From an uncultured Coriobacteriales bacterium (GTDB lineage Bacteria > Actinomycetota > Coriobacteriia > Coriobacteriales > Atopobiaceae): a stretch of DNA of 38,588 bases. The notes below the pieces were generated by a model. That model had not been told where the DNA came from, ran no database searches, and saw only the letters and a list, made by a program, of their open reading frames with translations. How positions within the stretch are numbered: position 1 is the first letter of the stretch; every line of letters starts with the position of its first letter. A program made the position numbers and the translations under genes. The stretch spans positions 1 through 38,588 of the forward strand of contig CAMOLV010000002.1 of NCBI GenBank assembly GCA_946619045.1, written 5' to 3'. Shown piece by piece: positions 18,653-34,772 of the stretch.

Positions 18653-18737
18653 CGGGGCGTGGCGGAATGGCAGACGCGCGTGCCTCAGGAGCACGCGGGC
18701 TTCGCCCGTGCGGGTTCGAGTCCCGCCGCCCCGACCA
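18653..18737 (+). tRNA. tRNA-Leu(CAG), type II with long variable arm, encoded CCA
   Basis: Acceptor CGGGGCG/CGCCCCG; anticodon stem CGTGC-CTCAGGA-GCACG; variable arm CGGGCTTCGCCCG; T-arm GCGGGTTCGAGTCCCGC; CCA. Confidence 0.93.
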
Positions 18738-30764: not shown

Positions 30765-31292
30765 ATGAAGGTACACAAGATCAAGGTGCGAGACCGCACC
30801 GTGTCGTGCGACGACCTCGAGCTGGTCCAGGGCACGCAGGGCGTCGACGCCGTCGGCCTCGACCTCGATCCGGAATGGACAGGGCTCGAGGTCACGGTGA
30901 CGTTCGCTGCGGCGGCCGGCAACTACACACCGGCGCGGGACGGCGGAGTCTGGCCCGTGCCGTGGGAGGTGCTCAAGGAGACCGGTGAGGTCGAGGTCGG
31001 CATCGAGGGCCGACGCGGTACCGACGTACTCAAGTCGGTGCGTATGCCGTGGCCGTTCCGCGTGCGCCCGTCGCTCACGGTCGGCCAGCTGCCCAGCGAC
31101 CCGACCGTGAGCGACCTGCAGGCGCTCGTGCTCGAGGCCAAGGAGCTCAAGGCGCAGATCGCGCAGACCGTCGCCGACGCCCGCGCTGTGCTCGGCGAGA
31201 TCGAGGACTACGCCATCGCCGAGTGGAGTGTGGATGCCCGGGTTCATCGCCTGCTGGTGGGCCCTGTCAAATCGAGGAAGGATGATGCCTAG
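30765..31292 (+). CDS. Baseplate/tail-fibre-associated protein
   Basis: Position directly before the DGR target gene; RBS AAAGGAGG. Confidence 0.55.
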   Translation: MKVHKIKVRDRTVSCDDLELVQGTQGVDAVGLDLDPEWTGLEVTVTFAAAAGNYTPARDGGVWPVPWEVLKETGEVEVGIEGRRGTDVLKSVRMPWPFRVRPSLTVGQLPSDPTVSDLQALVLEAKELKAQIAQTVADARAVLGEIEDYAIAEWSVDARVHRLLVGPVKSRKDDA

Positions 31293-32911
31293 TGGCTGAT
31301 GAGAACACCGGCGGCACCCTGACCGAGGTCAAGGTGTCCGAGGGCGAGTACATCGACGGCCTGACCGTCACCCTGAAGGACGGCACGTCCAAGGACTACC
31401 CGTTCAAGTACGAGAACGAGGAGGCCCTGGAGACCGCGCGGATCGCCGCCGACGCCGCCGCAAAGGCCGCGAACGAGGCCAAGGCCGCGGTGGAGGCCAA
31501 CGAGGAGCAGCGCAAGACGGACGAGGCGACGCGCGTCTCTAACGAGGAGACGCGCAAGACCGAGTTCGCCGAGGCGAAGAAGGCGGCCGAGGACCAGACC
31601 GCCGAGGCGAAGAAGGCGGCCGAGGCCGCAAATAAGGCCAAGGAGCTCGCGGACGGCGCGACCGAGCTGGCCAACACCGCCGCGGGCAACGCGGACGAGG
31701 CCACCTCGTCCGCCACCGAGGCCGCACGCAAGGCCAACGCCGCCGCCGAGGCCGTCAGCGTGGCCACGCTGGGCATCTCGCCGCAGCAGCTCCGCGCGAT
31801 GGTCCGCATGGGCAACGCCGCCGACGTGCTCCGCGTCGGCGATCAGCTCAACTCGACCTTCACGTGGGAGAGCGAGGAGTACCCGCTGCCGTGCGACGTC
31901 CTCCATCACTTTAACGGTCGCGACGCCGACCACCCGCTGTCCACGCTCGAGGGCGGCATCGAGGCCCCGACCATGGCCATCGGAGCTCACTTCGCGCTTC
32001 CTCCTGCCTGCGCCTTCGACAGCATGGAGGCGCTCTACGTCCCCGAGGCCGACATGCAGCCGGGCCAGTACGACATAATCGTCGAGGTCAACTATGTCTG
32101 GGGCACCGGCGTGTGCGCCGCGAAGGGGTCGACCAGGTTCACCTTCACGACTACGAAGGTATGGCCTGCGGGCTGCCAGGTCCTGTGGAACGCCTCCTAC
32201 GGCGGAGAGTTCACATCGCTCACCGCGTACGAGAACTTCAGCGATAAGGTCATCGAGACGGTATCGGTCGCCGCCGGCAGCGGCGGCACGCTGATCGGTA
32301 CCGCCAACGAGCAGATCAACGGGCGTATCAACAACATTCAGCGCGCCTGCGAGGGCAACAACGACTACACGAAGTCCGGCTTGCATCGATGGGCCAATGC
32401 ACATGGCACCGACTGGGACGTACAGCAGGGCATATTCGACCGCCCGCACCCGCTCCACGGCAAGCCCGGCCTGCTCGACTGCCTGCCGCCGGAGCTCGTC
32501 GAGGTCCTGGCGAAGGTGTCGGTCAAGACACAGCTCCACCCGGTCGACGGCGGCGAGATCGCCGAGACGTTCGACTACGCCTACCCGCCGTCCGCGCGAC
32601 AGCACTACTTCAGCAACTACCTGGGCGCCACGACCGAGGGCTACAACGCCGAGGGCGTTCCGTTCGACTACTTCAAGGCGCTCGCGGTGAGCACCGGGAT
32701 CACCGGCCCGTTCCAGGGCTGGCAGACCTACCCGGCGCTCATCACGTTCGGTGCTGAGAACCACACCGTTGCCTGCAGCTGCTGGCTTCGCTCCCCGATC
32801 CGGGACGCGGCGTTCGCGTGCTACGAGGGGATCGTGTACTCGTCTGGCCTCGTCTGCGACGCAGGGGCGGCGCTCGGCAATCGGCTCGTCGTCGTCCTGC
32901 ATATCGGCTAA
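31292..32911 (+). CDS. DGR variable protein: tail receptor-binding protein with coiled-coil stalk and C-type-lectin-like variable C-terminus
   Basis: C-terminus CSCWLRSPIRDAAFACYEGIVYSSGLVCDAGAALGNRLVVV carries VR; Ala/Glu/Lys coiled-coil N-terminal half. Confidence 0.9.
   Translation: MADENTGGTLTEVKVSEGEYIDGLTVTLKDGTSKDYPFKYENEEALETARIAADAAAKAANEAKAAVEANEEQRKTDEATRVSNEETRKTEFAEAKKAAEDQTAEAKKAAEAANKAKELADGATELANTAAGNADEATSSATEAARKANAAAEAVSVATLGISPQQLRAMVRMGNAADVLRVGDQLNSTFTWESEEYPLPCDVLHHFNGRDADHPLSTLEGGIEAPTMAIGAHFALPPACAFDSMEALYVPEADMQPGQYDIIVEVNYVWGTGVCAAKGSTRFTFTTTKVWPAGCQVLWNASYGGEFTSLTAYENFSDKVIETVSVAAGSGGTLIGTANEQINGRINNIQRACEGNNDYTKSGLHRWANAHGTDWDVQQGIFDRPHPLHGKPGLLDCLPPELVEVLAKVSVKTQLHPVDGGEIAETFDYAYPPSARQHYFSNYLGATTEGYNAEGVPFDYFKALAVSTGITGPFQGWQTYPALITFGAENHTVACSCWLRSPIRDAAFACYEGIVYSSGLVCDAGAALGNRLVVVLHIG
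32768..32894 (+). repeat. VR: DGR variable repeat (VR)
   Basis: 127 bp aligned to TR with 15 mismatches, all opposite TR adenines. Confidence 0.97.
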
Positions 32912-32921
32912 TCGTCTAATC

Positions 32922-32945
32922 CGGCGGCGCACCCCTGCGCCGCCG
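32922..32945 (+). other. DGR-type post-VR hairpin/cruciform
   Basis: Perfect 10-bp stem CGGCGGCGCA/TGCGCCGCCG with CCCC loop, 27 bp after VR. Confidence 0.85.
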
Positions 32946-32962
32946 CGGCTGTGGAGGAAAAA

Positions 32963-33427
32963 ATGGGAGTGCCAGAGGGCAAGCGAAGGGAAGACAGGCT
33001 CGAGGTGTACGACCTGGCCAGGGCCATGGCCGTGCACACGCTCGACATCACGCGCAATAGAAGGGTCTTCCCGGGCCGCTACGAGAAGGTCGTGAACGGC
33101 ATCAACGGGGTCGCATGGGAGATCCCGCGCAACCTCTGGCTCGCCAACAACACCAAGGTCGGACCCGGCCAGCCGCCGGAAAACCTCGCGGTGCGCCGTC
33201 GCCACCAGCAGACCGCGATGAGCTACATCAACGAGCTCCTGTTCGAGATCGAGATGTGCGAGATGGTCTTTGGCGGCAAGCGCGATGACGACAGCGACGA
33301 GAAGAAGCTGTCCCGCAGGAGGATCAGCTACTGGTCGGGTCTCGTCGTCCAGGTCAAGGAGATGGCCAGGGCCTGGATTAAATCGGACATAAGGCGGTTC
33401 GGGCAGCCCGAGCCGCCTCGGGGCTAG
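32963..33427 (+). CDS. avd: DGR accessory variability determinant (Avd), helical-bundle protein
   Basis: 154 aa, positively charged helical protein LEVYDLARAMAVHTLDITRNRRVFPGRY...QQTAMSYINELLFEIEMCEMV; sits between VR and TR; RBS GGAGG. Confidence 0.85.
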   Translation: MGVPEGKRREDRLEVYDLARAMAVHTLDITRNRRVFPGRYEKVVNGINGVAWEIPRNLWLANNTKVGPGQPPENLAVRRRHQQTAMSYINELLFEIEMCEMVFGGKRDDDSDEKKLSRRRISYWSGLVVQVKEMARAWIKSDIRRFGQPEPPRG

Positions 33428-33433
33428 GTTGAA

Positions 33434-33560
33434 GTTGCCTGCAACTGCTGGCTTCGCTCCCCGAACCGGAACGCGGCGAACGCGAACAACGAGGGGATCG
33501 TGAACTCGTCTGGCAACGTCAGCAACGCAGGGGCGGCGAACGGCAATCGGCTCGTCGTCG
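33434..33560 (+). ncRNA. TR: DGR template repeat (TR), part of template RNA
   Basis: Adenine-rich AAC codon homologue of VR located between avd and RT. Confidence 0.96.
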
Positions 33561-33593
33561 ACTGAGACGGCACGGCGGAAGGAGCGCGGACGC

Positions 33594-34772
33594 ATGGGCC
33601 GTAGCCCGCAAGACAGACCGTCGCAGGGAACCGACACCCCGCCGGGACAACACCGGGAAGCAGGGCGCACCGACGACAACGGCCCCCACGGGGCTATGGA
33701 ACCTATACGCGATGCGCGCCTCGCGTACGCGCTCTCGCCGGAGGGCCTCAGGGAGGCCGCGGCAAAGTGCCAGCGGGGCAAGATGTGGAAGCCGAGCGTC
33801 AAGTCATTCTCGCTCAACGTGCAGGAGAGGTGCGAGCTCCTATCCAGGAGCCTCATGGCGGGGGAGTACGACTTCCCCGAGCCGCACCATTTCATCCTCA
33901 CGAGGCCGAAGAGGCGCGACTGCTCGGCGCCACCGTTCAAGGACCGCATCGTCCAGCGGTCCCTAATCGACAACGTAATCTACGAGGACATGACGAGGAG
34001 CCTGATCGGGGCCAACTGCGCCTGCCGCAGAGGTATGGGCACCGACAAGGCCCGCGACCTGCTCGTGCGCGACCTCAAGCGTCACTGGCACCGCCACGGG
34101 CTGGACGGCGGGATCGAGCTCTTCGATATCGCCGGATACTACCCCAATAAGCCGCACAGGCTGGCCAAGGAGACGTTCCGCAAGCGCCTTGACGATCAGA
34201 CGTACGCCCACGTCGAGCGGGCGCTCGACTCGCAGGCGGGGCGCAACCGACATGACGACGGGGACGGCTTCGGGGCGCGCGGATACGAGGCCGGTAGCGA
34301 GCTCATGCAGGTCGCGGGGATCTGCGACCTGGACGGCATGGACCATTACACGAAGGAGGTCCTCCGCGCCAAGTCCTATACGAGGTACATGGACGACTTC
34401 TATGTCCTGGACGCCGACCTCGAGTACCTGAGGTGTGCTAGGGAATCAATCGAGGATTACCTCGCGCGCATCGGCTACAGGCTCAACACGTCCAAGACGC
34501 ACATCCAGCCACTCACCGAGCCGGTCCCGTGGCTCGGCTACACCTACCAGCTCACGGAGCGCGGCAAGGTGATCGTTCGCATGAAGCCGGAGAAGTACCG
34601 CGAGCATATGCGGCGCCTCCGCAGGATGCGGAAGGCTGTCGATGCCGGGCGCATGGCGCGCGGGGCGGTGGACGCAGTCTACGAGTCGTACCGCAGCGAA
34701 CTCGTCGACCGGCACGTCACGAGGAAGCAGGTCGTCAAGTTTGAGCAATTCTATCGAGATCTTTGGAGGTAA
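33594..34772 (+). CDS. DGR reverse transcriptase
   Basis: YTRYMDDFYVL catalytic motif, IELFDIAGYYPNK, LGYTYQLTERGKVIVRMKPEK; adjacent to TR. An alternative start lies at 33696. Confidence 0.95.
   Translation: MGRSPQDRPSQGTDTPPGQHREAGRTDDNGPHGAMEPIRDARLAYALSPEGLREAAAKCQRGKMWKPSVKSFSLNVQERCELLSRSLMAGEYDFPEPHHFILTRPKRRDCSAPPFKDRIVQRSLIDNVIYEDMTRSLIGANCACRRGMGTDKARDLLVRDLKRHWHRHGLDGGIELFDIAGYYPNKPHRLAKETFRKRLDDQTYAHVERALDSQAGRNRHDDGDGFGARGYEAGSELMQVAGICDLDGMDHYTKEVLRAKSYTRYMDDFYVLDADLEYLRCARESIEDYLARIGYRLNTSKTHIQPLTEPVPWLGYTYQLTERGKVIVRMKPEKYREHMRRLRRMRKAVDAGRMARGAVDAVYESYRSELVDRHVTRKQVVKFEQFYRDLWR

Follow-up and report, generated by a model that had tools for sequence, protein, structure and literature searches.

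The stretch analysed here (the window) comprises 38,588 nucleotides of contig CAMOLV010000002.1 (assembly GCA_946619045.1), from an uncultured Coriobacteriales bacterium of the Atopobiaceae. Between positions 31292 and 34772 it carries a target gene with a variable repeat (VR) at its 3' end, followed by a hairpin, then avd, and then a template repeat (TR) and the gene of a reverse transcriptase (RT). We regard this cassette as a complete phage-borne diversity-generating retroelement (DGR), with a probability of about 0.97. An earlier note on the same DNA had already made this claim, and it is borne out by the adenine-only mismatches between the repeats, the placement of the RT, the profile match of Avd and a gene order identical to that of Bordetella phage BPP-1, with which the note had compared it. 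Its open reading frame (ORF) coordinates, the YMDD motif and the hairpin between VR and avd also stand; the RT start that it gave, ATG 33594, is likely wrong. The features of the cassette are as follows.

31292 to 32911, plus strand: DGR target gene, a tail-region protein of 539 aa with a GTG start, an Ala-rich coiled-coil-like N-terminus and a DUF6273-like C-terminal region ending in the VR.
32768 to 32896, plus strand: VR, the hypermutated 3' extremity of the target gene, located by repeat search and alignment to the TR.
32875 to 32894, plus strand: block resembling the initiation of mutagenic homing (IMH) site, the 3' end of the VR kept identical to the TR; its putative function is that of the BPP-1 counterpart.
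32909 to 32913, plus strand: first TAATC word, overlapping the TAA stop of the target gene.
32917 to 32921, plus strand: second TAATC word, 8 nt beyond the first and directly abutting the hairpin.
32922 to 32945, plus strand: post-VR hairpin or cruciform, CGGCGGCGCA-CCCC-TGCGCCGCCG, with a 10-bp stem, starting 11 nt past the target stop codon.
32963 to 33427, plus strand: avd (accessory variability determinant), with an in-frame GTG upstream at 32951, giving a gene of 154 or 158 aa.
33424 to 33431, plus strand: CTAGGTTG, immediately 5' of the TR, the presumed counterpart of the GTAGGCTG enriched in relatives.
33434 to 33562, plus strand: TR, with 27 A's and 11 AAC/AAT codons in the VR frame.
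33563 to 33714, plus strand: spacer (Sp) part of the DGR RNA, between TR and RT, with a conserved core CGCAGGGAACCGACACCC at 33622 to 33639.
33696 to 34772, plus strand: DGR RT, open from ATG 33594 with ATG 33696 as the likelier start, carrying YMDD and the motif 4 sequence AGSELMQ.

In an unbiased repeat search, no repeat family of the region was larger than a 127-nt pair (32768–32894 and 33434–33560) with 88% identity. Within 32768–32896, all 16 mismatches lie on adenines of the other copy (10 A>T, 4 A>G and 2 A>C), and the probability that 16 mismatches should all coincide with 27 A's among 129 sites is 1e-13 by position alone. Because the copy at 33434–33562 has A at each differing site, we assign it as the TR and the copy at 32768–32896 as the VR. 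The parts of the element and its adenine specificity are observed directly. The VR ends the target gene and the TR is rich in AAC codons, both as predicted; if all TR adenines were fully randomised, some 10^15 protein variants would be possible in the VR frame.

Evidence that the element has worked in nature comes from a separate phage record, L003, whose cassette is about 99% identical to that of the window when the VR is set aside (11 differences in 1121 columns, 2 of them in the TR). The target gene upstream of the VR differs between the window and L003 at 28 of 1476 positions. In the VR itself 17 of 129 sites differ; all 17 are sites where a TR has A, and none is among the 100 other sites. 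At site 98, one of the two at which the TRs differ, L003 has A in both TR and VR and the window has G in both, which is the expected outcome of TR copying into the VR after the two had diverged. The element has been active, and TR-to-VR transfer has taken place in nature. An invariant VR with an unconserved TR had been named in the earlier note as an observation that would speak against a DGR; what we find is a VR that varies between near-identical phages and a TR that is nearly constant, differing at 2 sites. An exact scan of viral contigs with the TR core pattern, its A's written as N, matched only L003 and one further record, L002, so no wider population was recovered.

The target protein matches the DUF6273 family PF19789 weakly (E 3.5e-4, slightly under the cut-off), and a 95% identical fragment is present in Siphoviridae sp. 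ctwIa5. Structure prediction, proposed in the earlier note together with a C-lectin-like end for this protein, gave a confident AlphaFold2 model (predicted local distance difference test, pLDDT, 91.6). The Foldseek matches of the model are several DUF6273 viral proteins and 9qa6, part of a Thomasclavelia ramosa IgA peptidase, and not solved DGR lectins: none of the solved C-type lectin (CLec) DGR proteins of the Mtd or TvpA type is among the 50 best Foldseek matches listed for the VR domain. Among solved structures, 9qa6 alone is significantly similar to that domain (31769–32908), with E 1.5e-6 by sequence and 5.9e-6 by fold. From the position of the gene and from its relatives, we suggest that the protein tips are most likely receptor-binding and would contact the host surface; a lectin fold and a receptor role would fit the wider DGR catalogue (PMC8144416). 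An alternative that we consider rather unlikely is that the protein is hypervariable for some other purpose, for example to bind glycans or mucus in the gut. Its resemblance to the peptidase would agree with such a purpose, as would the fact that not all DUF6273 proteins are phage receptors, but the gene is part of the tail module and lies just ahead of holin-like and endolysin genes, as do the DGR targets of BPP-1 and of Faecalibacterium phages.

The window RT matches the PHROG RT profile with E 2e-55, and its closest PDB sequence is BPP-1 bRT. The RT profile of its lineage finds bRT at 5e-39, compared with 4e-24 for the best group II maturase. In a tree that included 11 group II RTs and 8 retron-like RTs, built by a quick method and with long branches flagged, the window RT lies deep inside the DGR RTs and apart from both of these groups, with either of which a grouping would, according to the earlier note, have told against the assignment. 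Support by the Shimodaira–Hasegawa-like approximate likelihood ratio test (SH-aLRT) is 100 for the 70 DGR-side rows and 100 for the RT's own ten-row subclade, and the descent of the RT is directly established. The genome, at about 69% completeness, yielded neither a second RVT_1 match nor an additional TR-like copy. In the bacterial family to which the window belongs, an RT match at E 1e-8 was obtained for 15 of 140 species genomes, and group II intron RTs over the curated cut-off are present in 11.

A clade-profile search yielded 310 relatives, of which 80 were kept. An adenine-biased TR/VR pair was present in 100 of the 107 loci examined; the TR/VR finder behind this first survey favours adenines by construction, and a base-neutral finder was used for the specificity figures. 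With the latter, 1087 of 1154 mismatches (94%) in 73 nonredundant lineage loci fall at A (A>G 414, A>T 397, A>C 276), and A is the template base in 72 of the 73. The sequence (I/V/L)GxxxSQ is the hallmark of motif 4 in 90% of DGRs and, according to the DiGReF authors, perhaps not strictly required; the first part of the motif is nearly invariant in their set, and its SQ was proposed to be vital to fidelity at adenine (PMC3521204). The lineage has instead the pattern (P/A)GS(Q/E)x(I/V/M)Q. Of 88 lineage RTs, 83 open the motif with P, 4 with A and a single one with L, and the serine of SQ is mostly replaced by I or V; the 28 other DGR RTs compared all open it with I, L or V. Since the adenine direction is intact without it, (I/V/L)GxxxSQ as written is not needed for that direction in this lineage. 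Handa et al. are said to have found that R74 and I181 of bRT affect adenine mutagenesis.

The post-VR hairpin of BPP-1 requires a 4-nt loop with the sense-strand consensus GRNA, and changing GAAA to CTTT nearly abolished homing (PMC3240598). The window hairpin has no BPP-1-type GRNA loop; it has CCCC instead, closed by GCA/TGC. The loops found among relatives are CACC, CGCT, CACT, a CAC triloop and CCCACGGA, and also GCAA or GTAA. In the lineage (T)AATC or CATC words recur every 7–9 nt from the end of the VR to the hairpin, and the last often touches it. TAATC is present in 56 of 74 nonredundant targets, in 79 copies (shuffle mean 7, maximum 13); these statistics are descriptive, as the pattern was noticed by inspection before counting. 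A TAA stop followed by TC is seen in 45 of 70 targets compared with 10 of 647 other ORF ends, and coding constraint may explain part of the first copy. We rejected the idea that TAATC is a mere effect of the TAA stop: with the stop excluded, the 70 nonredundant targets still have 27 copies, where shuffles give 4 on average (maximum 11) and the control region from +61 to +100 has 1. Pairing of the words with GATTA in the DGR RNA was also considered and rejected, GATTA not being among the words enriched near the TR.

FP_Lagaffe, BalMu-1 and some Firmicutes loci also have AATCT words of this kind, which the examples checked from BPP-1, Vibrio VP58.5, Aeromonas and Bacteroides do not. Other DGR lineages have short repeated post-VR words of their own, such as AATCTT, ATCTG and CCTTG (L025, L029, L030, L031, L048, L050, L052 and L209–L221), which suggests that target words are lineage-specific. 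No mention of the TAATC pattern was found in the literature that could be searched.

The RNA 3' of the TR is conserved in the lineage as a structure, with compensatory changes at 17 of 18 predicted pairs, several of which appear as four pair types. The Rfam model RF03022 (Phage_DGR) does not match in the window or in L163 even at E 5; as a positive control, it matched the BPP-1 spacer at 104.7 bits. A lineage covariance model built from 45 relatives recovers held-out members down to L131 (19.4 bits, E 0.007). Positions 33592–33712 of the window align to the L131 counterpart with a score of 84, compared with 27.8 ± 5.0 (maximum 54) for shuffles, a difference of 11 standard deviations. If the RT ORF is read from 33594, its initial 102 nt coincide with the spacer RNA. 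Because the 34-residue N-terminal stretch that this start would add is absent from homologues and overlaps the spacer RNA, ATG 33696 is the likelier start, and the RT probably begins there.

Avd matches phrog_3206 (PHROG 'Avd protein of DGR') with E 7e-10, and Avd hidden Markov model matches are present in 94 of 99 relatives. Its structural model is a five-helix bundle (pLDDT 91), for which the best fold is 2rld of the S23 family, with a probability of 1.00 but E 0.09. The profile match and the helical-bundle model agree with the Avd-like helical protein that had been proposed. Right 5' of the TR, GTAGGCTG is strongly enriched in the lineage (GTAGG in 50 of 69 compared with 7 expected), and by analogy with BPP-1, where such a signal is known at the end of avd, it is possibly a reverse-transcription stop signal. 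At about 4832–4834 of L003, the counterpart of window 33425–33427, the avd stop TAG has become CAG; the Avd frame continues through the TR in the VR's frame to a TGA after ...NRLVVD, which is either an Avd–TR fusion or a sequencing error.

Judged from these sequences, the lineage is a DGR variant that departs from the type element in its RT motif, its target site and its RNA. We found no description of these departures in the accessible literature, most subscription papers lying outside the search, and the loci have probably been counted already in large DGR surveys. We propose, tentatively and at slightly less than even odds, that this is a large lineage which recognises its target by a so far undescribed site, made up of two to three (T)AATC words, 7–9 nt apart, that start where the target gene ends and lead into a non-GRNA hairpin, and in which the RT is adenine-directed without (I/V/L)GxxxSQ.

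Several observations weigh against our interpretation of the window element. Its motif 4 is not the canonical one. A single independent VR variant, that of L003, is known for the window phage, L002 being 100% identical to the window and possibly from the same sample, and the case for activity is made from sequence data. The window spacer scores just 1.6 bits with the relatives' covariance model, which is not significant, and is tied to them via L131 only. A decayed or silent DGR, of which the present VR is a frozen product, would agree with the metagenome-type nature of all the data, with a motif 4 that lacks the SQ dipeptide and has E where nearly all clade members carry Q, and with the loss of the avd stop codon in L003. 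We consider this very unlikely, as every ORF is open, the catalytic D and YMDD are present and the VR has 17 adenine-templated differences from L003 in a background that is otherwise about 98–99% identical. The suggestion of a retron, group II intron or antiviral (defence-associated RT, DRT) enzyme beside a chance tail-gene repeat has a negligible probability: weak matches to TIGR04416 and DRT models are expected for any RT, the group II and retron RT models score far under their cut-offs (47.2 bits vs 300 and 14.7 bits vs 235), the tree places the enzyme in the DGR clade, and the TR/VR pattern, adenine-only in the window and with A as the template base in nearly all relatives, already refutes it.

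Tape measure and tail genes precede the DGR cassette, and holin-like and endolysin genes come after it, which confirms the prophage tail-module location suggested earlier. Further upstream lie genes for an integrase, a ParB-like protein, terminase, portal, protease and scaffold, and the carrier looks like a temperate siphovirus-like prophage. Within the phage head module, a tRNA-Leu(CAG) gene (18653–18737) separates the protease gene from the scaffold-like genes. The contig begins within a tRNA-like sequence (positions 1–52; Rfam tRNA, 31 bits, 5' cut), which is possibly an attachment site or just a contig break.

This type of system is already known, and the same layout has been published for gut Coriobacteriia: prophage DGRs of Eggerthella lenta (ert; for example DSM2243phi4) have the order mtd-avd-TR-RT and a 130-bp repeat, and one prophage was shown to work, with VR substitution at 10 sites in culture (PMC8778435). 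The BPP-1 DGR (mtd-avd-TR-brt; NC_005357) shares with the window the order of genes and repeats with Avd between VR and TR, adenine-only mismatches (17 of 17 in BPP-1, 16 of 16 in the window), a GC hairpin with a 4-nt loop just past the target stop, and a TR–RT spacer of similar length (144 nt, compared with 133 nt in the window from start 33696). It differs in its RT (about 26% identical, with motif 4 IGSLTSQ), in its GAAA loop, in having no TAATC words and in an RNA that is matched by RF03022. Among Faecalibacterium phages, FP_Taranis has a DUF6273 protein annotated as a DGR target, and (T)AATC words follow the VR in FP_Lagaffe, with one in FP_Taranis; the RTs of FP_Taranis, FP_Lagaffe and FP_Brigit are, however, 25–29% identical to that of the window, and their motif 4 opens with the canonical I/L-G. 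The nearest relatives besides L002 and L003 are the IMG/VR contigs L131–L133 (3300026522, 3300037698, 3300018484), with 44% identity in the RT, 40% in the VR protein and a matching spacer RNA; their hairpin loop is ACCA and their VR residues differ.

We suggest that RT and Avd would copy the TR portion of an avd-TR-spacer RNA, misincorporating at template adenines. By analogy with BPP-1, the Avd–RT complex would be bound to the spacer RNA and the complementary DNA (cDNA) self-primed (PMC12875486, PMC3240598), and the mutated cDNA would then replace the VR at the 3' end of the tail-protein gene. Integration would be guided by the identical 3' block of VR and TR and by a downstream target site composed of the TAATC words and the GC hairpin, the latter in the role it has in BPP-1; the words may form part of a recognition or unwinding site. 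The outcome would be a phage population with mixed tail-protein tips.

By itself, the element is a good but ordinary case of phage tropism diversification. Its lineage amounts to a natural experiment, in which at least 72 nonredundant TR/VR pairs are adenine-directed by RTs that lack the motif to which DiGReF (PMC3521204) ascribed this property, and the DiGReF hypothesis is directly testable through motif 4 swaps. The covarying spacer RNA provides a basis for modelling a DGR RNA group that Rfam misses. DGR target finding is still called incompletely understood in the 2026 literature (PMC12875486), and the TAATC words with the altered loop offer a testable candidate for it.

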